From the IMG/VR virus record IMGVR_UViG_3300030085_000321, positions 1-28,033 of that record: a stretch of 28,033 nt of DNA; one strand, 5' to 3'. Under the pieces are notes generated by a model. The model was given only the letters and a program-made list of their open reading frames with translations. It ran no database searches and had not been told where the DNA came from. The DNA comes from a virus. This document shows positions 4,909 to 23,413 of this stretch, one piece after another (the stretch's first letter is position 1; the number at the start of each line of letters is the position of its first letter). A program made the position numbers and the translations under genes.

Positions 4909-5118
4909 TTACTTTCCCGTGGAGTCTTCCTCCACGATCTCGTCAATCGTATCACAAACGTCTGGGATTCGGATGCCTGTCGTAACCTCAGTGGTCACGC
5001 GGCCTACAGCTCGTATGCCTTTGTAGACACCAGAGCAGTACAGTTCCTTGTTGGCTATCATTTCCTCGGATACAGAGCATCCCGCCATTAGTACACACAG
5101 CGCAGCGATTCTAAGCAT
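4909..5118 (-). CDS. Small outer-membrane-type lipoprotein of the lysis region
   Basis: 69 residues from ATG 5118, preferred over an upstream TTG at 5133 because AGG sits 7 bases ahead of this ATG (GAGGTTGAAAATG). The start overlaps the lipase stop by 8 bases. The N-terminus is a short basic plus hydrophobic signal ending in a lipobox (LMAGC), so Cys14 should be lipidated and the mature protein is about 56 residues. The mature part holds two more Cys and the motif 'IPDVCDTIDEIVEE'. The location among lysis genes suggests an o-spanin-like (Rz1) or lysis-regulating role, but it lacks the Pro-rich body of classical Rz1, so the function stays open. Confidence 0.8.
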   Translation of the reverse strand: MLRIAALCVLMAGCSVSEEMIANKELYCSGVYKGIRAVGRVTTEVTTGIRIPDVCDTIDEIVEEDSTGK

Positions 5119-5851
5119 TTTCAACCTCGTCAATCATTTTGTTGAGTTCTTTAATTTCTTCTGGATTAAGTATTTTATCTTGAGCATCTAAGAATACACC
5201 TAGTCGTTCTTTGTACCCTTCCATAAAATGGTCAGAGATAGCATCTTTCAGGCTTCTGTCTTCCTTCCTAACTTCTTTTGAAGGGTTTATGTAGTCTTGC
5301 ATGGAGTTAGCAAAGTACAACATAGTCTGCGACCTAGAAGGCCCATAGCAAAGGCGTGGTATGCGTGCCACCATATCGGAACCTTGCACACAAGAAATCT
5401 GGTTATCCAGTTTCATAGGACGCTTGAACCCTTTGAAGAACACATTAGGTTTACCAAAGGTTACCAGATTGATATTAGGGTGTTTTTTCCACAGTTTAGC
5501 TGCGCTTAATTCTGCTAACGCTCCACCAAGACTGTGCCCACATATTAAAGTACGCTTCTTCATGTCTAGGTGCTTCTTTACTTTACCCCAAACAGAGGCA
5601 TGAGCTGCGGTAAACCCACCGTGGCACAACCTGCCTACGTAAGGTACTGGGACTACTAGCGCATCGGTAAGCCAATCACGCCCCTGTTGCGTCCCACGAA
5701 ACGCTATGATGTCTATGGATTTGCGTTTTGCTACATAAACTGTAGTAGAGGTAAGTTTACTTTCTATTTTTATAGAGTCTTTATTTTCATCGTTGTAGGC
5801 TTTCATCGCCCAACTACACGCCATATTAAGTAAAACGGGGTCTAGTTTCAT
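5111..5851 (-). CDS. Class 3 lipase (alpha/beta hydrolase)
   Basis: 246 residues, start ATG 5851 in a TAATG overlap with the upstream gene. The hallmark blocks of the class 3 lipase family appear in order: IIAFRGT (48-54, oxyanion region), CHGGF (76-80), the nucleophile elbow GHSLGG with Ser107, TFGKPNV (131-137), Asp159 (GSDMVARIP) and His208 (SDHFMEGY). All three catalytic residues are therefore present. The family hydrolyses acylglycerols or phospholipids. There is no signal peptide, so the enzyme would start in the cytoplasm. It is flanked by a membrane protein, a lipoprotein, a holin and an endolysin, so attack on host membrane lipids at lysis is a reasonable inference. A C-terminal charged tail (about 225-246) extends beyond the catalytic domain. 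Confidence 0.9.
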   Translation of the reverse strand: MKLDPVLLNMACSWAMKAYNDENKDSIKIESKLTSTTVYVAKRKSIDIIAFRGTQQGRDWLTDALVVPVPYVGRLCHGGFTAAHASVWGKVKKHLDMKKRTLICGHSLGGALAELSAAKLWKKHPNINLVTFGKPNVFFKGFKRPMKLDNQISCVQGSDMVARIPRLCYGPSRSQTMLYFANSMQDYINPSKEVRKEDRSLKDAISDHFMEGYKERLGVFLDAQDKILNPEEIKELNKMIDEVENA

Positions 5852-6539: not shown

Positions 6540-7250
6540 TTACCAATCACCTGTCCAATGTTTTAACCCAAACTCTTTGTAAAGGTTACGTTTTTCTGTT
6601 TCCCAATCTAGCTTCAACGCACCATTTTTATAAATAACAGTATCATAGGGCGGCTTTTCATCATAAACTTTTATAAACCCGCTAGTACTGGCTTGTTGTT
6701 TAATTCTTTCAAAAACCTCTGACTCTGGGTTTGGGTCAATCATTTCCCCACAAAATGTTTGCGTAACAGCGTGCATATAAGTTTGTGGCCCTAAAAAATA
6801 AATATTATCGTGTCCTTCTATTAACCTTTGCACGTACAAAGAAGCCGCATAGTTATACGCTGGGTTTTCAGGCGCTGTCATCATAAAATCATGTGAAAAA
6901 TCATAATTTCTACATATAGGTAAAACCCACTTATCCCCTTCTTCTAACAAGCTGTCAAAGCTGGTATTACAAAAACGATCTATATCCATATAAACACCAC
7001 CTTCGATAAACAGTTTGACTAAACGCCAAAGGTCTGTTTTCTGGACTATGTGCTTATCTTGGATCAATTCATAATGCTGTGGTTCTAATTGTTCTTTTAA
7101 ATAATCGTCTACTTCTGCATCATCATAAATAGTAACTTGCCAATTTGGGTTTAGCTCAATAACTTTTTTGACCCCCTCTACCACTAAGGGATTTGTACTT
7201 TCAAGAATACTTTTGTCTTTCCATGACATGTGTACTGTTTTAGGAATCAT
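6540..7250 (-). CDS. GT32-type glycosyltransferase (DXD sugar-binding family)
   Basis: 236 residues. The N-terminus IPKTVHMSW is the signature 'IPKxxHxxW' of the DXD-containing glycosyltransferase family (capsular polysaccharide and OCH1-like enzymes). Residues 72-92 (KTDLWRLVKLFIEGGVYMDI) lead into the DXD motif Asp89-Ile-Asp91 that binds the metal and nucleotide sugar. The C-terminus HWTGDW fits the family's final His/Trp motif. It should transfer a sugar from a nucleotide-sugar donor, with substrate unknown and no membrane segment visible. It overlaps the APS-kinase-like gene by 11 bases and is last in the glycan/sulfate cassette. Length is typical of a minimal family member. Confidence 0.88.
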   Translation of the reverse strand: MIPKTVHMSWKDKSILESTNPLVVEGVKKVIELNPNWQVTIYDDAEVDDYLKEQLEPQHYELIQDKHIVQKTDLWRLVKLFIEGGVYMDIDRFCNTSFDSLLEEGDKWVLPICRNYDFSHDFMMTAPENPAYNYAASLYVQRLIEGHDNIYFLGPQTYMHAVTQTFCGEMIDPNPESEVFERIKQQASTSGFIKVYDEKPPYDTVIYKNGALKLDWETEKRNLYKEFGLKHWTGDW

Positions 7251-7671
7251 AAGCTCTTAAATTTTTTCCTATATGCAAAAGTAATTCATGTTCTACTTTA
7301 GCTAAAGTATCTATATTAGTAACACGCACATCATACTGAGAAGGACGCTCAAACATTTTGTTAGTATCTGTGTATTCAGAAATTTGCACCGTGTCCATCC
7401 AAACCACCAAATCAGCGTTTAGTTTTTTACGCCATGCGTCTATAGGACAAATGAAATCTAAAAAGACTAGCCCTTTTTTATAATTAGCCGCTTCTTTCAT
7501 CCGGTTAAACTGTCTAAACCTTCCCTCCATAGAAAAGTCCCAATCGTGCAAAGCCGCTCTAACTTCGTCTGCGTTAATGTGGCAACCTCCATGCTTTGCT
7601 ACAAGCGATTTAGCCAGCGTTGTTTTTCCGCTATTGGGTAAACCAGTAAGTAACACCACACACTTTCTCAT
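7240..7671 (-). CDS. cysC: Adenylylsulfate (APS) kinase-like protein
   Basis: 143 residues. The P-loop GLPNSGKTT (10-18) is followed by HINADEVRAAL (31-41), DFSMEGR (45-51), RMKEAA (57-62), LDFICP (71-76) and WMDT (91-94). This is the order of APS kinase: ATP site, the D-x-V-R substrate motif and the FI(S/C)P loop. The later 'DTNKMFERPSQYDVRVT' matches phage-borne members of this family. The enzyme would phosphorylate APS to PAPS. It is shorter than cellular CysC (about 200 residues), and I see no ATP sulfurylase gene, so APS would come from the host. The start overlaps the upstream GT25 stop by 4 bases. A related small kinase of unknown substrate cannot be excluded. Confidence 0.8.
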   Translation of the reverse strand: MRKCVVLLTGLPNSGKTTLAKSLVAKHGGCHINADEVRAALHDWDFSMEGRFRQFNRMKEAANYKKGLVFLDFICPIDAWRKKLNADLVVWMDTVQISEYTDTNKMFERPSQYDVRVTNIDTLAKVEHELLLHIGKNLRAYDS

Positions 7672-8366
7672 ATTTTTAAATCATCGTTACGGGTAGTGCT
7701 TCGGCCTTCTAATGGCCTCCCTTTAATGGTCGTATTTAATTTATCACCATCCCATTCGTTGTAAGCGTAAACACCCATTTGATGGATAGGGAATAAATCA
7801 GCCCTTAATAAAATATCTAACGGCCCTGTAAGTCCGTATTTAATAACGTAAGCCAACATACTTTTAGCTACCGCAGGGTCAATAGCATAGGCATGAGCGC
7901 GACAAATAAAATGATAATTTGGGCCTTCGCTTGCATGAGGTGGCGTTGGTTGCACCGCCCACCCTTCTTTAACTTGCTCATGGCTACCTAAATAACAAAT
8001 AGAGTTATAGACTGCGTGTTGTGTATACGGCTGAACCATAATGCTATCGTGCTCTAACACTATTAACGGTTTATCTTCGGTTACACATTTAGCCCATAAT
8101 GAGATATGAGAAAGAGCGCAAGCAACTTCTCCCCTTGTCATGTAATGGTCTATAATTTTAACGCAATCCATAATTGGATTGTGATGACTTGGGGCTTTTA
8201 ACTCATCGCCAATGCCGTTGTAAGCATCCCAATATTCGTATTGTTGTCCTACCTGTTCACAAGAAGCTGCACAATTTGCGGATTTGTGTTCAGAATCCTC
8301 AAGCCCCTTGACTCGAATAATATAAGCGCAATCCACACCTAAATCGTAAGAGAAGAAAAGATTCAC
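7668..8366 (-). CDS. GT25-type glycosyltransferase (LPS biosynthesis family)
   Basis: 232 residues, GTG start at 8366 sharing its first base with the TAG stop upstream (TAGTG). The family pattern is visible: AYIIRVKGLEDSE near the N-terminus, YWDAYNG (45-51), then TRGEVACALSHISLW (77-91) and LIVLEHD (101-107), which is the donor-metal site with 'LEHD' in place of the more common LEDD. Later 'HFICRAHAYAIDPAVAK' matches the family's second conserved block. Members add galactose or similar sugars to lipooligosaccharide. It is translationally coupled to the APS-kinase-like gene. The LEDD to LEHD change keeps the last acidic residue, so activity remains plausible. Confidence 0.82.
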   Translation of the reverse strand: MNLFFSYDLGVDCAYIIRVKGLEDSEHKSANCAASCEQVGQQYEYWDAYNGIGDELKAPSHHNPIMDCVKIIDHYMTRGEVACALSHISLWAKCVTEDKPLIVLEHDSIMVQPYTQHAVYNSICYLGSHEQVKEGWAVQPTPPHASEGPNYHFICRAHAYAIDPAVAKSMLAYVIKYGLTGPLDILLRADLFPIHQMGVYAYNEWDGDKLNTTIKGRPLEGRSTTRNDDLKI

Positions 8367-8779
8367 TATAAACCATCCACATCATCATGTGTTTCGGCAG
8401 CATTAATAGCATCTATACGGGATTCATAAGTTGCTTGTGCAGTAGCTACGGCTGAAGCGTCATACTGAGTTGTAGGGTAGTTATCTATTTCTTTTGCCAA
8501 CTCCCTTCTTACTACCACCTCAAAATCAGCGTTTGCTGAAGCAACTAAACTGTCTTTACGTTCACTAACTGTAAGGTCTCTTTTGGCCCACACAATTTGT
8601 GCTGGAGTAGCATCAAGGTCAAAAGAATGTGTTGTAAACATTTCTCGGTTAGCAACAAGGTCTGGATAAACCTCTACTGCTTCGCGCCACCCTTCTTGAT
8701 TGCTAGGCGGCGTGGTGTCCCAAACTTCTTTCACTTGACCTTCTACAACTTGAATCCAATATCCTGTTTTTGTAGCCAT
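8366..8779 (-). CDS. Small protein resembling tail-fibre-assembly or fibre-associated proteins
   Basis: 137 residues, start ATG 8779 with a strong AGGAG site 8 bases ahead. The N-terminus (GYWIQVVEGQVKEVWDTTPP) has the strand-turn form of small phage tail-fibre-associated proteins, and the C-terminal half (residues 80-137) is a helical Ala/Asp-rich region similar in style to assembly chaperones. The first 77 bases lie inside the 3' end of the upstream sulfotransferase/GT gene in another frame. Its own strong ribosome site makes it a convincing gene. It separates the sulfotransferase fusion from the other cassette genes. The function is a guess from shape and place. Confidence 0.65.
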   Translation of the reverse strand: MATKTGYWIQVVEGQVKEVWDTTPPSNQEGWREAVEVYPDLVANREMFTTHSFDLDATPAQIVWAKRDLTVSERKDSLVASANADFEVVVRRELAKEIDNYPTTQYDASAVATAQATYESRIDAINAAETHDDVDGL

Positions 8780-10526
8780 TTGTATCTCCTAAATTTTCTT
8801 TTACTCTTTTAAAAGGCTCATCCCAATTTCCATAAGTCGTTTGCCTAAACAAAGTAACACTGTCGTACCACTCCGACTTATTTCCCGGTTTTGCCCACAA
8901 ATAATAAGGAAGAATAGGGATTATTATCCAAGTATTTACCCCCATTGCCGCTGATAGGTGAGCTACGGAAGTGCAAGAAGTAATCACTAAATCACAAGTT
9001 GCAATGGCGTGTCGAGTGTCGCCCCAATGTTGAAGTGGAACTTCCTTTACCCATTCTGGTTTATGCTGCGAACCTTCGTCACGTTGTAAAGATATAAAAT
9101 CTGCCTCTATATCTTTTACTGCATCAAACAACTTACTGCTTGGAAATAACCTATGCTGCTCGTGTTCAAACTTTGGATTGCCTTGCCATCTAAGCCCTAT
9201 TCGTAATTTTTTATTTAGAGGAGTTAGCGGCTTAGAAATATAAGGTGACCCATCAACATCAGCATACTGTAACTCAAGAGGTATTACAGCAGACATAGCA
9301 GGAACCCAAAAATCGTGTAGAACACCACCCGCAGCTCCCGTTACAACCACGGCACTGACACCGGGAATATCTCGGAAAAGGCCCATTAACTCTGGAGAAC
9401 AAGCCACAACCACATCACAGCCTTTGTTCACAATGTAGCGCACCATTCCTGCACCGTGAATTTGATCCCCTAAACCACCCTCAAGGTTAAGCAAGACTGT
9501 ACCTTTGCTTTTCCCATCCCAAAGAGGCATGGGCGAACCGGGATTGGGGTTACCAAATACATCTTCGTTCCTACCCCGTACAAGAAGGCGGTGTCCGTCT
9601 AAAAGTTTTCCTTTGCGTAACTCATACCATCCACGGTTAAAAGCGGCTCGGTCATTACGGGGTTCTTCTCTACCAAGCTCGTCTCCTAATCTTGCTGCCT
9701 CGTCTAACTTGCCAAGCAGTCCTGCCCCTAACATCATATCTAGCTTTTGTATGGGAAGACGTGGGTTTGTCTCACCTTGCCAAAAACGAGGTTGAACAAA
9801 ATCTCTGTACAGATGTTGTAAAACGCTTTGTGCTGGAGGGACGATAGCTTGTTTTAATTGTTTACGGACATCATGTAGTCCTTTAATGCCCCAAATCTCT
9901 TCATCTTTTTCGTGAAGGCCCGTAGCATCAATATTGTCCGTATCATAGGTATGGGGAGAAAGTTCTAAAAAACGCTCTACCCCTCGTAAAGTTTCTTCTG
10001 GATTATTGTTTAACTCATCGTAATCCACATAATAAATATGCTCTCTCATCCAGTGATGAGCTTTTAACAAATTTACATAAGATTCTTGAATGTCTTTAAC
10101 GTAGGGAGATTCTCGTAAAAAAGAAGAAAGTTCATTAGGTTTTGCAATGCGTACCATAGACGCTACACAATCTTCTACATTGCGAACAGTAGCAATAATT
10201 TTGGGTGAGTACCCTAAAGAAGATTTCATTGTACTAATGTTTTTAGGTTTTACCCACGATCTGTTTTTATCTAAAACAACTTTTTTTTCTACAGATTTAT
10301 ATTTAACTTTACACACGGCTTTGATTGCATCACAAATTTCTTGAGGGATTTTGTCAGTGTCCACTCTCGCTGCTTCATGTTCTTCCCATCCTTGTAACAT
10401 CCCCACTAAAATCCCTATTAGCCCAGACGTTGCAGTAGTATGTAACTCAGGATGTTGGTTTAGGAGTGCAGCAAGTACGGTGGAACCTGACCGAGGTAAT
10501 CCTGCTAAGAAGTAAAGTTTTTCCAT
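8703..10526 (-). CDS. PAPS-dependent sulfotransferase fused to TPR-like and GT9-like glycosyltransferase domains
   Basis: 607 residues. Residues 1-250 are a sulfotransferase: GLPRSGSTVL (9-18) is the 5'-phosphosulfate-binding loop, and Arg115 with Ser123 (R-x7-S in VRNVEDCVASM) is the 3'-phosphate site for PAPS. Residues about 262-325 look like one or two TPR-type helical pairs. Residues 343-579 resemble the heptosyltransferase (GT9) type: NLEGGLGDQI (347-356), GLRWQGNPKFEHEQHR (444-459), CDLVITSCTSVAHL (511-524) and a final WDEPFKRVKENL. The protein would thus attach a sugar and a sulfate to a glycan. From about residue 582 the frame runs through the start of the next gene, so the last 26 residues are probably a nonconserved read-through tail. 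The start at 10526 is 3 bases after the RCC1 stop. Confidence 0.87.
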   Translation of the reverse strand: MEKLYFLAGLPRSGSTVLAALLNQHPELHTTATSGLIGILVGMLQGWEEHEAARVDTDKIPQEICDAIKAVCKVKYKSVEKKVVLDKNRSWVKPKNISTMKSSLGYSPKIIATVRNVEDCVASMVRIAKPNELSSFLRESPYVKDIQESYVNLLKAHHWMREHIYYVDYDELNNNPEETLRGVERFLELSPHTYDTDNIDATGLHEKDEEIWGIKGLHDVRKQLKQAIVPPAQSVLQHLYRDFVQPRFWQGETNPRLPIQKLDMMLGAGLLGKLDEAARLGDELGREEPRNDRAAFNRGWYELRKGKLLDGHRLLVRGRNEDVFGNPNPGSPMPLWDGKSKGTVLLNLEGGLGDQIHGAGMVRYIVNKGCDVVVACSPELMGLFRDIPGVSAVVVTGAAGGVLHDFWVPAMSAVIPLELQYADVDGSPYISKPLTPLNKKLRIGLRWQGNPKFEHEQHRLFPSSKLFDAVKDIEADFISLQRDEGSQHKPEWVKEVPLQHWGDTRHAIATCDLVITSCTSVAHLSAAMGVNTWIIIPILPYYLWAKPGNKSEWYDSVTLFRQTTYGNWDEPFKRVKENLGDTNGYKNRILDSSCRRSSERSLGHHAA

Positions 10527-10529
10527 GCT

Positions 10530-11678
10530 TTATCTTTGCGCCCAACAGGTAATACCACTAAAAGAACCTAAATGTATGCGTAGCCAATCCGTTTGAGAAC
10601 CTATTTGGACAGGAGAAGAATACTTTACGTGTTCCACGTTTATCCCCATTTGACCTTCATAGTTAGCACCCCAAGCCCAAAGCGTTCCATTAGTTTTTAA
10701 CGCAAGAACCATAGCGTTTCCGGGCCTAACGTCTTGCCAATTAGTCAACGATCCTATTTGGACAGGGGCGTTTCTCTGCGTTGTCGAATTGTCGCCCACT
10801 TCTCCGTTGCCGTTTCTACCCCACATATACAATTTACCAGCGTCAATGCCTCCTGATTGTTGATAACCTGCGCCCACAGCCGTCCAACCCGTGCTTGAAC
10901 CTACTTGAACAGGACTATTCCTTAGAGATGTATCATTAAGCCCCAACTGTCCATAATTATTATTTCCCCACGACCATAAGGTGCCATCTGTTTTAATATG
11001 TAATTGATGATTTTCACCGCCAGTAGCTCCTTTTAGCCAGTTGGTTAAAGAACCAAGTTGCACAGGGGATGAAATATTACCGGAGGTTGTGCCGTTACCT
11101 AAACCTCCTTGAGTAGCTGCCCCCCACACCCAGAGAGAGCCATCTGTTTTGACTGCTTGACACGCCGTGTTACCCCCTCCAGTGGTAGAAGCCCACGTTG
11201 TGAGTGATCCAACTTGCACAGGGGATGAATAGCGATCTTTACCTACTCTAACGCCCGTTCCAACCGCTCCATTCTCATTATTTCCCCAGCCCCAAAGCGA
11301 TCCATCTTTTTTAATAATGTGACAAGTAGTGGCTTCTTGCATCAGAACTCCACCCGTCCAATTAGTTAAAGAACCAATTTGAACAGGAGAAGAATTATTA
11401 AGTGATCCATTGTTCCAAGCACCAAATCGATTATCTCCACAGTTATACAAATAACCACTTGAGCGAGTTCCAACAAAGTTATAGGCGCCCGAAACTTGTA
11501 ACCAATCAGCAGCCGAACCAAGTTGGACAGGAGAGGACTTCCGAGCACCCGACTCTGTTTCACCTAAGTTCCATCCACCAGCTCCGTTATAGTTATCACC
11601 CCAACCAAAAAGCCTAGCAGGAGTAACACTTTCAGCTAACGCAAAGTTGCCTAGCATCATTAAAGTTATTCCAGACAT
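10530..11678 (-). CDS. RCC1-type seven-bladed beta-propeller tail protein
   Basis: 382 residues made almost wholly of about 50-residue repeats with the RCC1 signature: LFGWGDN, LYNCGDN, LWGWGNN, LWVWGAA, LWSWGNN, LYMWGRN and LWAWGAN. Each is followed by a Gly-rich turn and a recurring SSPVQ(I/V/L)GSLTNW segment. That gives seven blades, a full propeller, with short capping strands at both ends. Cellular RCC1 proteins bind chromatin, GTPases or peptidoglycan-associated partners. In phages such proteins usually sit on the tail, and the neighbours here are tail-fibre-like genes. The first 16 residues are hydrophobic (GITLMMLGNFALA), either a blade strand or a weak signal. The ribosome site is weak. 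Confidence 0.85.
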   Translation of the reverse strand: MSGITLMMLGNFALAESVTPARLFGWGDNYNGAGGWNLGETESGARKSSPVQLGSAADWLQVSGAYNFVGTRSSGYLYNCGDNRFGAWNNGSLNNSSPVQIGSLTNWTGGVLMQEATTCHIIKKDGSLWGWGNNENGAVGTGVRVGKDRYSSPVQVGSLTTWASTTGGGNTACQAVKTDGSLWVWGAATQGGLGNGTTSGNISSPVQLGSLTNWLKGATGGENHQLHIKTDGTLWSWGNNNYGQLGLNDTSLRNSPVQVGSSTGWTAVGAGYQQSGGIDAGKLYMWGRNGNGEVGDNSTTQRNAPVQIGSLTNWQDVRPGNAMVLALKTNGTLWAWGANYEGQMGINVEHVKYSSPVQIGSQTDWLRIHLGSFSGITCWAQR

Positions 11679-11690
11679 AAGTAATTACCC

Positions 11691-12683
11691 TTATATGTTT
11701 CCAGTAATGACACACACAGTTGCGCTAATAAATAAAATAGTGGCAACCCCTCTCGTGGCTAAAGTTGCCGTAGCAATGTCAGCGTCCTCACCTGCTTTGT
11801 AAGCAGTAGTGATTGTACAAGTTATGGTCACATCACCTGTTGTGTTATTAAAAATAGAAATTACATCGCCTTCTGCAAAAGTAGAATCAGGTATTACAAT
11901 AGAACCACTACTACCGACTTGAACATACTTGCCAACATCTCCCACAGCTAACGTATAGGCTGATGTTTTTGTTCCTACAGCAGGGGCGTTTCTAAAACCA
12001 ACCTCATCCGTACCATCTGCGGTACAACTTTGGAGATTACCTGAAGCAGGTGTCCCTAAAACAGGCGTAACAAGAGTTGGACTTGTAGCAAAAACTAAAG
12101 CTCCTGTGCCAGTTTCATCAGTAACCGCAGAGCGCAAATTAGCACTAGAAGGTGTCCCTATCCACGTTGCTACCCCAGTGCCGAAAGATGTAATTCCAGT
12201 ACCGCCATTTGCTACAGGTAGTGTCCCAGTAACTTGACTTGTTAGGCTTAAATTAAAATTAGCTAAAGCATCTACAACAGCAGCTCCAGACCCAGCTCCA
12301 TCTAAATAAACTATTTTAGTTTCCCCAGTGCCGATATTAACAGTGCCACCTGAACCTTGTTTAATAGTTATGGTCTGACTACCTGTAGTGGCATTTTCTA
12401 TCCACATCAAACGGGATAATGTGTTAGGAGCTATTGTAAGTTCTCTAGTGGTGCTTAAAGTAGCACCTGAAGTAACTTTAAAATAAAGTGCTCTTGCTGG
12501 GTCTGCCGCGCCGTCAGCAACAGTTGTAGTAGCGTTACCGTCTGAAGCAAAAGAGGCTTGTGTGTTGTACCCAAGCGAGTCAGCAATAAGTTCTAAATTA
12601 GTATTAGTACTAGTACCCCAAGTGCCGTCTTCATCACCAGTGGTAATTTCTTTAAGTCTTAAATTGTTTACGTAAGTAGCCAT
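11691..12683 (-). CDS. Tail-fibre-like virion protein
   Basis: 330 residues, ATG 12683 with AGGA 7-8 bases upstream. The N-terminus (TYVNNLRLKEITTGDEDGTW) and the following Thr/Ser/Gly-rich strands are typical of the shaft-attachment part of phage tail fibres. The segment LPVANGGTGITSFGTG and the repeated 'TPVLGTPASGNLQS' are well-known fibre motifs. The C-terminal third (SGSIVIPDSTFAEGDVISIFNN) looks like a small beta-domain. It likely forms part of a trimeric fibre or baseplate-type decoration that contacts the host. It starts a three-gene group (with the Gly/Val repeat protein and the propeller) probably devoted to host recognition. Confidence 0.8.
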   Translation of the reverse strand: MATYVNNLRLKEITTGDEDGTWGTSTNTNLELIADSLGYNTQASFASDGNATTTVADGAADPARALYFKVTSGATLSTTRELTIAPNTLSRLMWIENATTGSQTITIKQGSGGTVNIGTGETKIVYLDGAGSGAAVVDALANFNLSLTSQVTGTLPVANGGTGITSFGTGVATWIGTPSSANLRSAVTDETGTGALVFATSPTLVTPVLGTPASGNLQSCTADGTDEVGFRNAPAVGTKTSAYTLAVGDVGKYVQVGSSGSIVIPDSTFAEGDVISIFNNTTGDVTITCTITTAYKAGEDADIATATLATRGVATILFISATVCVITGNI

Positions 12684-13926: not shown

Positions 13927-14214
13927 TTATATCTCCAATAGTTTTACAAGTTCCGAATGCCCAGCATCACGGAATTGGTTTGCCAAAGTTGTGCGGTCTG
14001 AACGAATAGCTTGTTTCATATACTCAATCAACACCCCACGGATTTGCTTTTTAAACGCTTCTGCCTGTTCTACAATCAAAGGATGGCTATTGCCACCCAC
14101 GTAAATTATTTTATCTAACGCTTGTTCAGCTAACTCTTCTACAGTAAACCCTCGCTTAGATACGGTAGTAACCTTTACGTTACCTATTTCTACAACACTT
14201 TCAGAACTTATCAT
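13927..14214 (-). CDS. Conserved small helical protein of the neck/tail region
   Basis: 95 residues, ATG 14214, abutting the upstream gene. It opens with a short beta hairpin (VVEIGNVKVTTVSKRGFTVEEL) followed by helices (AEQALDKIIYVGG, AEAFKKQIRGVLIEYMKQAIRSDRTTL, LVKLLEI). I recall the 'MKQAIRSDRTT' segment in many phages with similar gene order, always beside structural genes. It has no membrane segment and no known domain. A neck, connector or chaperone role is possible, and nothing in the sequence decides between them. Confidence 0.75.
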   Translation of the reverse strand: MISSESVVEIGNVKVTTVSKRGFTVEELAEQALDKIIYVGGNSHPLIVEQAEAFKKQIRGVLIEYMKQAIRSDRTTLANQFRDAGHSELVKLLEI

Positions 14215-14840
14215 TAGACTGAATCTGCCCTAGTTTGACCGCTACGATACGCATCTTCTCGTAGCTTGCCATCTCCAAGATTTTTAAGTAACGCTATAGA
14301 TTGTACATACATCTTTTCATAAGTAGCTATCATATCAGGCTCTCCTTTTTGGAACCTAATAGCTTCCATCAAGGCTCCATTCAAAAGAGCAGAATCAAAC
14401 TCCGTACCTAACCATGTAGTGCCAGCAGTGACTATAGACTCTGGATAATAAGCAAAGTGTATTTCTGCATCAAAGTTAGCATTAGGAGTTGGACCTACTA
14501 TAAAACTAGTTTGGTCAAAAACAGCATAGTGCACAGGCACTCCTGTGGTAGCAGGGTTGGGATACGCTTCACGCATAAAATTAGAATCTTTATCTAACAA
14601 ATAAATGTAATCGCTTCCGCTAACAATCGCTAAAGAATAAGCGTACAAAAAACCAGAAGGCATTGTTAAATACTTATTACCACTAGTTAATGAACCTGTT
14701 TGATTCTTCCGCAACGCAGGTAAAGACACCGTAGTGTATATTTTTTGCTCTGCCTGTTTAGTAAACATAGCAAGCTGGTCATCTGTGAACGTTTGCTCAC
14801 AAATGTCATTAACGTTTGTTTTAAGCTCTGTGTAGTTCAC
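14214..14840 (-). CDS. Head-tail adaptor-like protein (second neck protein)
   Basis: 208 residues, GTG start at 14840 in a TAGTG overlap with the small gene upstream and an AGAGG site ahead. The layout is an N-terminal helical part (CEQTFTDDQLAMFTKQAEQKI), a beta segment (GNKYLTMPSGFLYAYSLAIV), a second strand region (VPVHYAVFDQTSFIVGPTP...AEIHFAYYP) and C-terminal helices (LLNGALMEAIRFQKGEP). This is the same order of elements as in the larger adaptor at 15696-16400 and in phage adaptor proteins that join the portal to the tail. It probably forms a ring in the neck. Confidence 0.72.
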   Translation of the reverse strand: MNYTELKTNVNDICEQTFTDDQLAMFTKQAEQKIYTTVSLPALRKNQTGSLTSGNKYLTMPSGFLYAYSLAIVSGSDYIYLLDKDSNFMREAYPNPATTGVPVHYAVFDQTSFIVGPTPNANFDAEIHFAYYPESIVTAGTTWLGTEFDSALLNGALMEAIRFQKGEPDMIATYEKMYVQSIALLKNLGDGKLREDAYRSGQTRADSV

Positions 14841-15695: not shown

Positions 15696-16400
15696 TCATA
15701 CCTTATTACGTATTAACGGCACTAAGTTAATAGACGCTTTTTCTCTGTCCTCTTTCGCAGCCAAATCAAACTGACGTTCGTATTCTGTCTGTAGCATGGG
15801 TACTCTTGTAGCTAATTCAGGGTCTTTCATAGCTACATAATAAGCTAACCCCGCTACTAAACAAGGCAAAAACCTAAAATTAACATCCGAAGTTTGTACA
15901 CCGCTTCCCGCATCTTGAATCCTTCTCATACGGTAGTATTTTAGTATGTACGTAGGAGAGTCGGCAGTACCTTTATCTGGCACAGGCCACAAGGTTGCTT
16001 TTGGATTATCCCGTGCTCTATCTATATAGATTTGTATGGGACGACCCTGACTTAGTTTATTTGGTATGGTTGCATAAGTAGAAACACTTATACGAGAAAC
16101 GGTAAGATCAGCCTGTGTAGACACGCTACCACTTCCAGTACGAATAACATGTTCCAATAAGTCAATAGTGTCAGCGGGTAAATCATAAGTTGCAGTTCCA
16201 GCAACTAAGTTAACCGTGCCTTCATCTATCGTCCACATATTGATTCCACGGTTTTGCCACTCAATAGTAAGCAAATTCATAGACCGCCTTGCGGTGCGTA
16301 GGTCATAGCCAGAACGCATTTCGCGCCCAGCTCGTTCCCACGCCTCTTCAGCGATTTCAGTGAAATCCATGTTAAACGCAGTAGTACCGGAAGTGGCCAT
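15696..16400 (-). CDS. Head-tail adaptor (neck) protein
   Basis: 234 residues, ATG 16400. The N-terminal helices (FTEIAEEAWERAGREMRSG, LRTARRSMNLLTIEWQNRG) are followed by 'GTVNLVAGTATYDLPADTIDLLEHV', then 'GRPIQIYIDRARDNPKATLWPVPD' and 'YILKYYRMRRI', and C-terminal helices (LPCLVAGLAYYVAMK). This is a highly recognisable pattern of the adaptor (gp4 or tail-tubular-A-like) proteins of short-tailed marine phages. It should form a dodecameric ring under the portal. It is followed directly by the zinc-ribbon/cupredoxin gene and the second adaptor. The ribosome site is an AAGAAG stretch within the Lys-rich end of the previous gene. Confidence 0.82.
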   Translation of the reverse strand: MATSGTTAFNMDFTEIAEEAWERAGREMRSGYDLRTARRSMNLLTIEWQNRGINMWTIDEGTVNLVAGTATYDLPADTIDLLEHVIRTGSGSVSTQADLTVSRISVSTYATIPNKLSQGRPIQIYIDRARDNPKATLWPVPDKGTADSPTYILKYYRMRRIQDAGSGVQTSDVNFRFLPCLVAGLAYYVAMKDPELATRVPMLQTEYERQFDLAAKEDREKASINLVPLIRNKV

Positions 16401-22797: not shown

Positions 22798-23223
22798 TCA
22801 CGCACGAGTCAGTTTACTCGGATCGTCAATTACGGCTTCAATCGAGTCGTCATTCATAATGCGATACTCAACATCACCCACTCTAAGTCTAGTGCCTGTG
22901 TTTGCTCGGAATACTACGTAATCTCCTTCCTTACACCACGGGCCATTAGGAAAACGTTCTTTATCCTTATAGGCTTCATCCCCCATATCACAGACAACAC
23001 CTGTCATCTGGAGAATGTTTTCTTCCCTTATGGTTTGAGTAGCTTTCGCAATACCACTATCAAACGTATCTTCTGCGTTAGATAAGGCCACCATAACCCT
23101 ATAACCAACAGGCTTGGGAACATGTTTGTCTAAGACTACTTCTTTCTGCTTTTCAAACTCTTGTTCCGCTATCTTCTTCTTTCGCTTGGCTTCAATAGCC
23201 GTCATTTCAATCGCTTCAGGCAT
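22798..23223 (-). CDS. GroES-like co-chaperonin
   Basis: 141 residues from ATG 23223, 6 bases after GGAAG and overlapping the upstream stop by 8 bases. The ATG at 23229 is too close to that site. After a basic 35-residue N-terminal helix (AKRKKKIAEQEFEKQK) comes the co-chaperonin pattern: PKPVGYRVMVAL, a mobile-loop region with SGIAKATQTIRE, TGVVCDMGDEAY, CKEGDYVVFRANTGTRLRVGDVEYRIMNDDSIEAVI. This mirrors GroES (RPL.DRV, GVVVAVG, VKVGD, EYLI...DILAVI). It likely caps host GroEL to fold the coat protein, as T4 gp31 does. The N-terminal extension is longer than in GroES. Confidence 0.85.
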   Translation of the reverse strand: MPEAIEMTAIEAKRKKKIAEQEFEKQKEVVLDKHVPKPVGYRVMVALSNAEDTFDSGIAKATQTIREENILQMTGVVCDMGDEAYKDKERFPNGPWCKEGDYVVFRANTGTRLRVGDVEYRIMNDDSIEAVIDDPSKLTRA

Positions 23224-23413
23224 CGTCATCTTCCATATAAGTACGCGAGAGGTCTTGTATTTCTCTGCGTGCGGTGGCTAGACCCCGTATCACCCCGCAC
23301 GATTCCTTATATTCGGCGTAGTCTTGAGCACTACCACCGCTAACGAATTCTTCCTGTTGTTTCTGTAACTCAGTTAATTTTTCTTCTAGCACGTCAAAGA
23401 CGGTCTTTGTCAT
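23216..23413 (-). CDS. Small coiled-coil protein between portal and co-chaperonin
   Basis: 65 residues, ATG 23413, 6 bases after the portal stop, overlapping the GroES gene by 8 bases. The product is a single helical coil (VFDVLEEKLTELQKQQEEF, SCGVIRGLATARREIQDL) with an acidic end (MEDDDA). A similar short gene follows the portal in many podoviruses of marine origin. No function is known. It may be a portal or scaffold-associated assembly factor. The start lacks a good ribosome site, so it may depend on coupling with the portal gene. Confidence 0.72.
   Translation of the reverse strand: MTKTVFDVLEEKLTELQKQQEEFVSGGSAQDYAEYKESCGVIRGLATARREIQDLSRTYMEDDDA

Follow-up and report, generated by a model that had tools for sequence, protein, structure and literature searches.

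The window analysed here, meaning the whole stretch of DNA considered, is a linear virus record of 28,033 bases (IMG/VR record IMGVR_UViG_3300030085_000321) whose terminase is ~45% identical to those of phage 023Pt_psg01 and of the Pelagibacter phages HTVC023P and HTVC027P. On its minus strand, a run of coupled genes (6540-10526), in which neighbours overlap or abut within a few bases, encodes a sulfotransferase-glycosyltransferase fusion, two further glycosyltransferases, a small kinase and a 137-aa protein, next to a gene for an RCC1-repeat protein. An initial annotation had read the run as a pathway in which a CysC-like adenosine 5'-phosphosulfate (APS) kinase makes 3'-phosphoadenosine 5'-phosphosulfate (PAPS) for the sulfotransferase, with host lipopolysaccharide (LPS) or capsule, or the phage's own tail, as possible targets. 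The open reading frames it named are all present, with a fifth (8366-8779) between them, and the run is indeed flanked by virion genes (RCC1, tail-fibre-like) on one side and by lysis genes (Pfam matches to lipase, 7.6e-19, and lysozyme, 2.1e-15) on the other; overlooked were the RCC1 partner upstream, the conserved 137-aa gene and the C-terminal shortening of the kinase. On balance we lean towards the view that these genes supply the enzymes of a self-modification module with which the phage acts on its own RCC1 protein. The features of the locus are as follows.

11691-12683, minus strand: gene upstream of RCC1, probable tail-fibre component (phrog_31104 5.5e-16, function unknown; same-position genes elsewhere often belong to tail-fibre families)
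10530-11678, minus strand: RCC1-repeat protein, 382 aa, seven repeats (Pfam RCC1 1.1e-36; phrog_4219 4e-31)
8703-10526, minus strand: sulfotransferase-tetratricopeptide repeat (TPR)-glycosyltransferase fusion, 607 aa (Pfam Sulfotransfer_3 2.3e-17 over aa 6-190, Sulfotransfer_1 9e-12; alignment of 11 homologues; AlphaFold models)
9777-10526, minus strand: sulfotransferase domain, aa 1-250 (phmmer, human TPST2 1.2e-6; Foldseek, 3ap3)
10479-10496, minus strand: PRSGST 5'-phosphosulfate-binding loop, aa 11-16 (invariant in 11 homologues)
10158-10184, minus strand: R115-x7-S123 3'-phosphate-binding motif (R115 and S123 invariant in 11 homologues)
8757-9776, minus strand: TPR and GT-B glycosyltransferase domain as modelled, aa 251-590 (pLDDT 92.1, pTM 0.91; Foldseek)
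9567-9746, minus strand: TPR-like helices, aa 261-320 (profile matches to consensus TPR proteins; helices in the model)
9465-9467, minus strand: Asp354 of GGLGDQIH, proposed catalytic base (conserved in 52/52 sequences)
8366-8779, minus strand: 137-aa protein without a recognised family, possible assembly factor (kept beside RCC1 and the fusion)
7668-8366, minus strand: GT25-type glycosyltransferase, 232 aa (Pfam Glyco_transf_25 2.7e-14)
7240-7671, minus strand: P-loop kinase of the APS-kinase superfamily, 143 aa, without the C-terminal adenylyltransferase domain (Pfam AAA_33, APS_kinase)
6540-7250, minus strand: GT32-type glycosyltransferase with DxD motif, 236 aa (Pfam Gly_transf_sug 7.8e-12; GGVYMDIDRF)

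The RCC1 protein is a seven-bladed propeller, each of its seven repeats bearing the motif (S/A)PVQxGS; among close relatives its first 15 residues are conserved and the propeller part is variable. The arrangement of RCC1 followed by such enzymes recurs in many environmental phages. Loci from other phages were collected in three ways, by the fusion, by the glycosyltransferase profile alone and by RCC1 alone, with 80 terminase loci as controls. The gene directly upstream of the glycosyltransferase is RCC1 in 63 of the 71 loci found by the glycosyltransferase profile only, the median gap between the two genes being 31 nt. Because some loci of the different sets share contigs, we also give the count after dereplication at 90% identity (53/67); these adjacency counts are probably low, since the regular expression for RCC1 misses some genes. 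Starting from RCC1 only, the next gene is the glycosyltransferase in 27 of 40 loci, and 21 of these carry it fused to a sulfotransferase. RCC1, glycosyltransferase and sulfotransferase were all absent from the 80 terminase control loci. The order RCC1-glycosyltransferase-sulfotransferase also occurs unfused in other phages, and among 36 genes upstream of RCC1, many matched tail-fibre or tail-fibre-assembly PHROGs. The RCC1 gene is the constant partner of the cassette.

Evolutionary rates set the RCC1 gene apart as well. In pairwise comparison with locus L086 it has the highest ratio of nonsynonymous to synonymous substitution rates (dN/dS) of the neighbourhood, 0.52, with 0.27 for the 137-aa gene, 0.20 for the sulfotransferase and 0.15 for the glycosyltransferase; the kinase, GT25 and GT32 genes lie at 0.07-0.09 and most other genes at 0.03-0.11, with g196 (0.22) as an exception. 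Given the purifying selection on the kinase, GT25 and GT32 genes, together with the protein-family E-values, the run is not a product of chance. In the close relative L089, identity to the window reaches 71-97% across the cassette, RCC1 included, but only 40-46% for g151 and g208, and the kinase is missing, so that the cassette travels as a unit without the kinase. A partial Mantel test gave 0.31 (p 0.004) for RCC1 and sulfotransferase given the glycosyltransferase, and -0.06 for RCC1 and glycosyltransferase given the sulfotransferase, although the test is anti-conservative on related sequences and faster evolution of the sulfotransferase could mimic the signal. That the genes merely share a recombination hot spot behind the tail-fibre genes, with no common function, seems very improbable: the region is indeed hypervariable in marine T4-like phages (PMC7029224) and accessory genes vary from locus to locus, but the RCC1-glycosyltransferase order is retained in diverse phages, fused and unfused, a sulfotransferase-glycosyltransferase fusion exists, and the cassette moves along with RCC1.

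The sulfotransferase half of the fusion carries both PAPS-binding motifs that the initial annotation had recognised, the 5'-phosphosulfate-binding P-loop and the 3'-phosphate-binding R-x7-S motif, which is the signature of PAPS-dependent sulfotransferases, and the nearest solved folds bind 3'-phosphoadenosine 5'-phosphate (PAP). The best Foldseek match of the model is 3ap3, a complex of the tyrosylprotein sulfotransferase (TPST) TPST2 with PAP (1e-7, probability 1.0), a match at the level of the fold; a PAP pocket in the window domain is putative. Since TPSTs are the nearest relatives of the domain in sequence and in fold, and RCC1 divergence follows the sulfotransferase beyond the glycosyltransferase, one might suppose a variant of the self-modification reading in which the RCC1 polypeptide itself is sulfated, on tyrosine or another residue, independently of any sugar. 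We regard this variant as quite unlikely: polyketide sulfotransferases reach comparable profile scores, heparan sulfotransferases come next in the fold search, and the region of the TPST catalytic glutamate is not conserved, the GEETR of TPST, whose Glu after the P-loop we take to be the catalytic residue, being aligned to TATSG in the window. The domain differs from TPSTs in this region and also in its fusion to a glycosyltransferase.

The glycosyltransferase half, initially called GT9-like, gave no family match in a Pfam scan, whereas the Sulfotransfer, GT25 and GT32 assignments were borne out by profile and the APS_kinase assignment in part. Its model consists of TPR helices and a GT-B domain, for which Foldseek returned, with low TM-scores of ~0.3-0.5, bacterial O-GlcNAc transferase (OGT; 5.3e-5), TibC (6e-5), WaaF (6.7e-5) and WaaC (1.3e-4), as well as plant SPY. 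It resembles the GT9 ADP-heptose:LPS heptosyltransferases WaaC and WaaF in its modelled GT-B fold and in the invariant Asp of the GGLGD motif, and Asp354 may be equivalent to the catalytic Asp of WaaC and TibC; it differs from them in giving no Pfam family match and in lying beside a tail-region gene. With the TPR-type protein glycosyltransferases, OGT and SPY, it shares TPR helices placed before GT-B, OGT being the best Foldseek match, but its TPR helices are few and the identity is ~12%. The bacterial autotransporter heptosyltransferases (BAHT) TibC and AAH (PMC4358343) offer a further parallel, as GT-B-like enzymes that modify an adhesin, with TibC among the nearest folds and ADP-heptose genes beside some of the phage relatives. 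The window system differs from them in belonging to a phage, in having an RCC1 propeller and not an autotransporter, in its TPR helices, in the fused sulfotransferase, and in lacking the four-Cys iron finger, because the modelled glycosyltransferase domain holds only three Cys; membership in BAHT was ruled out on this ground.

A pair of ADP-heptose genes, a heptose kinase-like pfkB gene and an adenylyltransferase, accompanies 10 of 25 fusion loci and 18 of 80 glycosyltransferase loci, compared with 1 of 62 kinase loci without the glycosyltransferase and none of the 80 terminase loci, which suggests a donor of the heptose type. The other two glycosyltransferase-type domains of the run belong, as initially proposed, to GT25 by profile and to GT32 by profile and by an MDID (DxD) motif. 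The 137-aa gene adjoins the fusion in fusion loci, and its product matched no convincing family in PHROGs or the PDB. At L377, L382 and L392, a gene of this type directly follows RCC1, without a glycosyltransferase.

The kinase would be an accessory of the module. Its Pfam matches (AAA_33 1.1e-7; APS_kinase 1.2e-7, scoring 32.4 against a cut-off of 21.1) are partial and cover the N-terminal 86 residues only, and its best sequence match is an APS kinase, with similarity over the first ~85 residues. Against TIGR00455 (apsK, NCBIfam) it scores 26.3 bits, where the curated cut-off is 138.7. Like CysC it has a P-loop and the N-terminal motifs; it differs in falling below the curated NCBIfam cut-offs and in that its full-length relatives are P-loop kinases joined to an NMNAT-like HxGH adenylyltransferase. 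The window copy, shortened C-terminally, retains the family-conserved kinase residues and is under purifying selection (dN/dS 0.067). The kinase-adenylyltransferase family (L170, L172, L201 and relatives) is common in viral contigs and in SAR11 and SAR86 genomes; downstream of it, a gene for a DUF2061 membrane protein recurs in viral loci (12/80).

A sulfotransferase lies within ~6 kb of the kinase in 29 of 80 kinase-bearing viral loci, directly adjacent in several, and in the other 51 there is none. A search of 40 whole kinase records, mostly without a nearby sulfotransferase, gave sulfotransferase matches over the cut-off in 6. Conversely, a search of 18 virus records that bear the fusion, many of them fragments, found no kinase, and the close relatives L088 and L089 lack it while retaining the sulfotransferase-glycosyltransferase fusion, GT25 and GT32. 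The claim of a PAPS pathway is weak because the kinase falls far below curated cut-offs and is missing from relatives that keep the sulfotransferase, and after the linkage tests and score comparisons the kinase was dropped as a proven PAPS supplier. Given the association in 29 loci, such supply by an enzyme that is APS-kinase-like, but by the curated cut-off not an APS kinase, is possible but unproven. A distinct possibility, which we hold at somewhat less than even, is that the kinase alone is a nucleotide or cofactor enzyme, acting on an NMN-like or other adenylyl compound and unrelated to the sulfotransferase. Its full-length relatives bear the HxGH domain and in other phages lie among nucleic-acid and nucleotide genes, and tblastn of the SAR11 and SAR86 kinase genomes found no nearby homologue of the window sulfotransferase domain; opposed to this are the best match to APS kinase and the short kinase beside RCC1 in L427 too. 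The bacterial genome context of the family yielded no clear substrate. The L427 gene (6552-6980, plus strand) is an independent kinase-only gene of 142 aa near RCC1, with no sulfotransferase in the next five genes.

Building on the gene order, domain identities, conserved motifs, evolutionary rates and co-transfer observed here, the self-modification module could operate as follows. The RCC1 protein would be made together with the products of the tail-fibre genes, and the fusion enzyme, from the next gene, would bind it via its TPR helices. The GT-B domain would then glycosylate Ser or Thr of the propeller, the sugar probably coming from a donor of the ADP-heptose type, and the sulfotransferase domain would transfer sulfate from PAPS either onto that sugar or straight onto the polypeptide. 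Further sugars may be added to the glycan by GT25 and GT32, and the 137-aa protein may assist in assembly. Carried on the virion, the modified propeller would alter receptor binding, stability or masking. As the propeller is the likeliest target, the phage would decorate its own host-recognition part. Of the targets initially considered, the phage's own tail fits an RCC1 gene located by tail genes, and LPS or capsule is less well supported than RCC1. The alternative that host LPS or capsule is altered by these enzymes in the course of infection, to achieve superinfection exclusion or disguise and with PAPS provided by the kinase, is unlikely: the constant RCC1 adjacency, the protein glycosyltransferases among the nearest folds and the separation of kinase and sulfotransferase in both directions speak against it, even though GT25 is an LPS-associated family, ADP-heptose is a precursor of the LPS core, and the kinase has both its APS-kinase-like N-terminal part and its linkage to sulfotransferases in some loci. 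Similar genes have also been read in this way (PMC7029224).

Several points weigh against self-modification, among them the low TM-scores, the unconserved catalytic region of the sulfotransferase and the limits of the Mantel test given above. The next gene after RCC1 differs from the glycosyltransferase in 13 of 40 RCC1-only loci, many phage RCC1 genes sit in records without it, and ADP-heptose genes were not recognised within this 28 kb fragment. Adjacency could stem from a hypervariable insertion site behind the tail-fibre genes. Virions of coliphage W70 contain RCC1 proteins of phrog_4219, but the authors of that work suspected a role in DNA packaging and not at the tail (PMC11370258). In the comparable host recognition cluster of pelagimyophages, where tail fibres likewise occur with glycosyltransferases and rfaE, the glycosyltransferases were read as modifiers of host LPS; the main text of that study differs in featuring neither RCC1 nor a sulfotransferase (PMC7029224).

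Weighing all this, we see an even chance that the module represents a system widespread among phages, with a dedicated TPR glycosyltransferase and a sulfotransferase, fused or not and in some cases with phage-borne ADP-heptose synthesis, that modify the RCC1 propeller by which the phage itself recognises its host and that co-evolve with it. There is precedent for glycosylated phage particles in mycobacteriophages (Freeman 2023, as cited in PMC10955285). A literature search, with most subscription journals outside it, found the module undescribed and no paper joining phage, sulfotransferase, glycosyltransferase and tail fiber. We know of no sulfotransferase or RCC1 module in mycobacteriophage virion glycosylation. 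If the self-modification reading is correct, phages use chemical modification to adapt the protein by which they recognise their hosts, and binding would not be predictable from sequence alone. The RCC1 genes of phages, which often bear the annotation of chromosome condensation regulator, would then have to be understood as coding for components of the virion that serve in recognition. The question is testable, since the named phages S-SRM01 and BUCT-ZZ01, both deposited with named Synechococcus hosts, carry RCC1 followed by the glycosyltransferase. In the S-SRM01 record, RCC1 lies at 224026-225243, the TPR glycosyltransferase at 225280-226629 and a sulfotransferase at 230774-231556.

A reading as a defence system was set aside, PADLOC having given no match. 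Elsewhere in the window, the lipase of the lysis region (5111-5851, minus strand) is of class 3. A Chaperonin-10 (GroES-like) gene (22798-23229, minus strand; Pfam Cpn10 3.4e-9) sits between genes that probably encode portal and capsid, and two minus-strand genes, 14214-14840 and 15696-16400, match the SU10 adaptor family, possibly as the result of a duplication.

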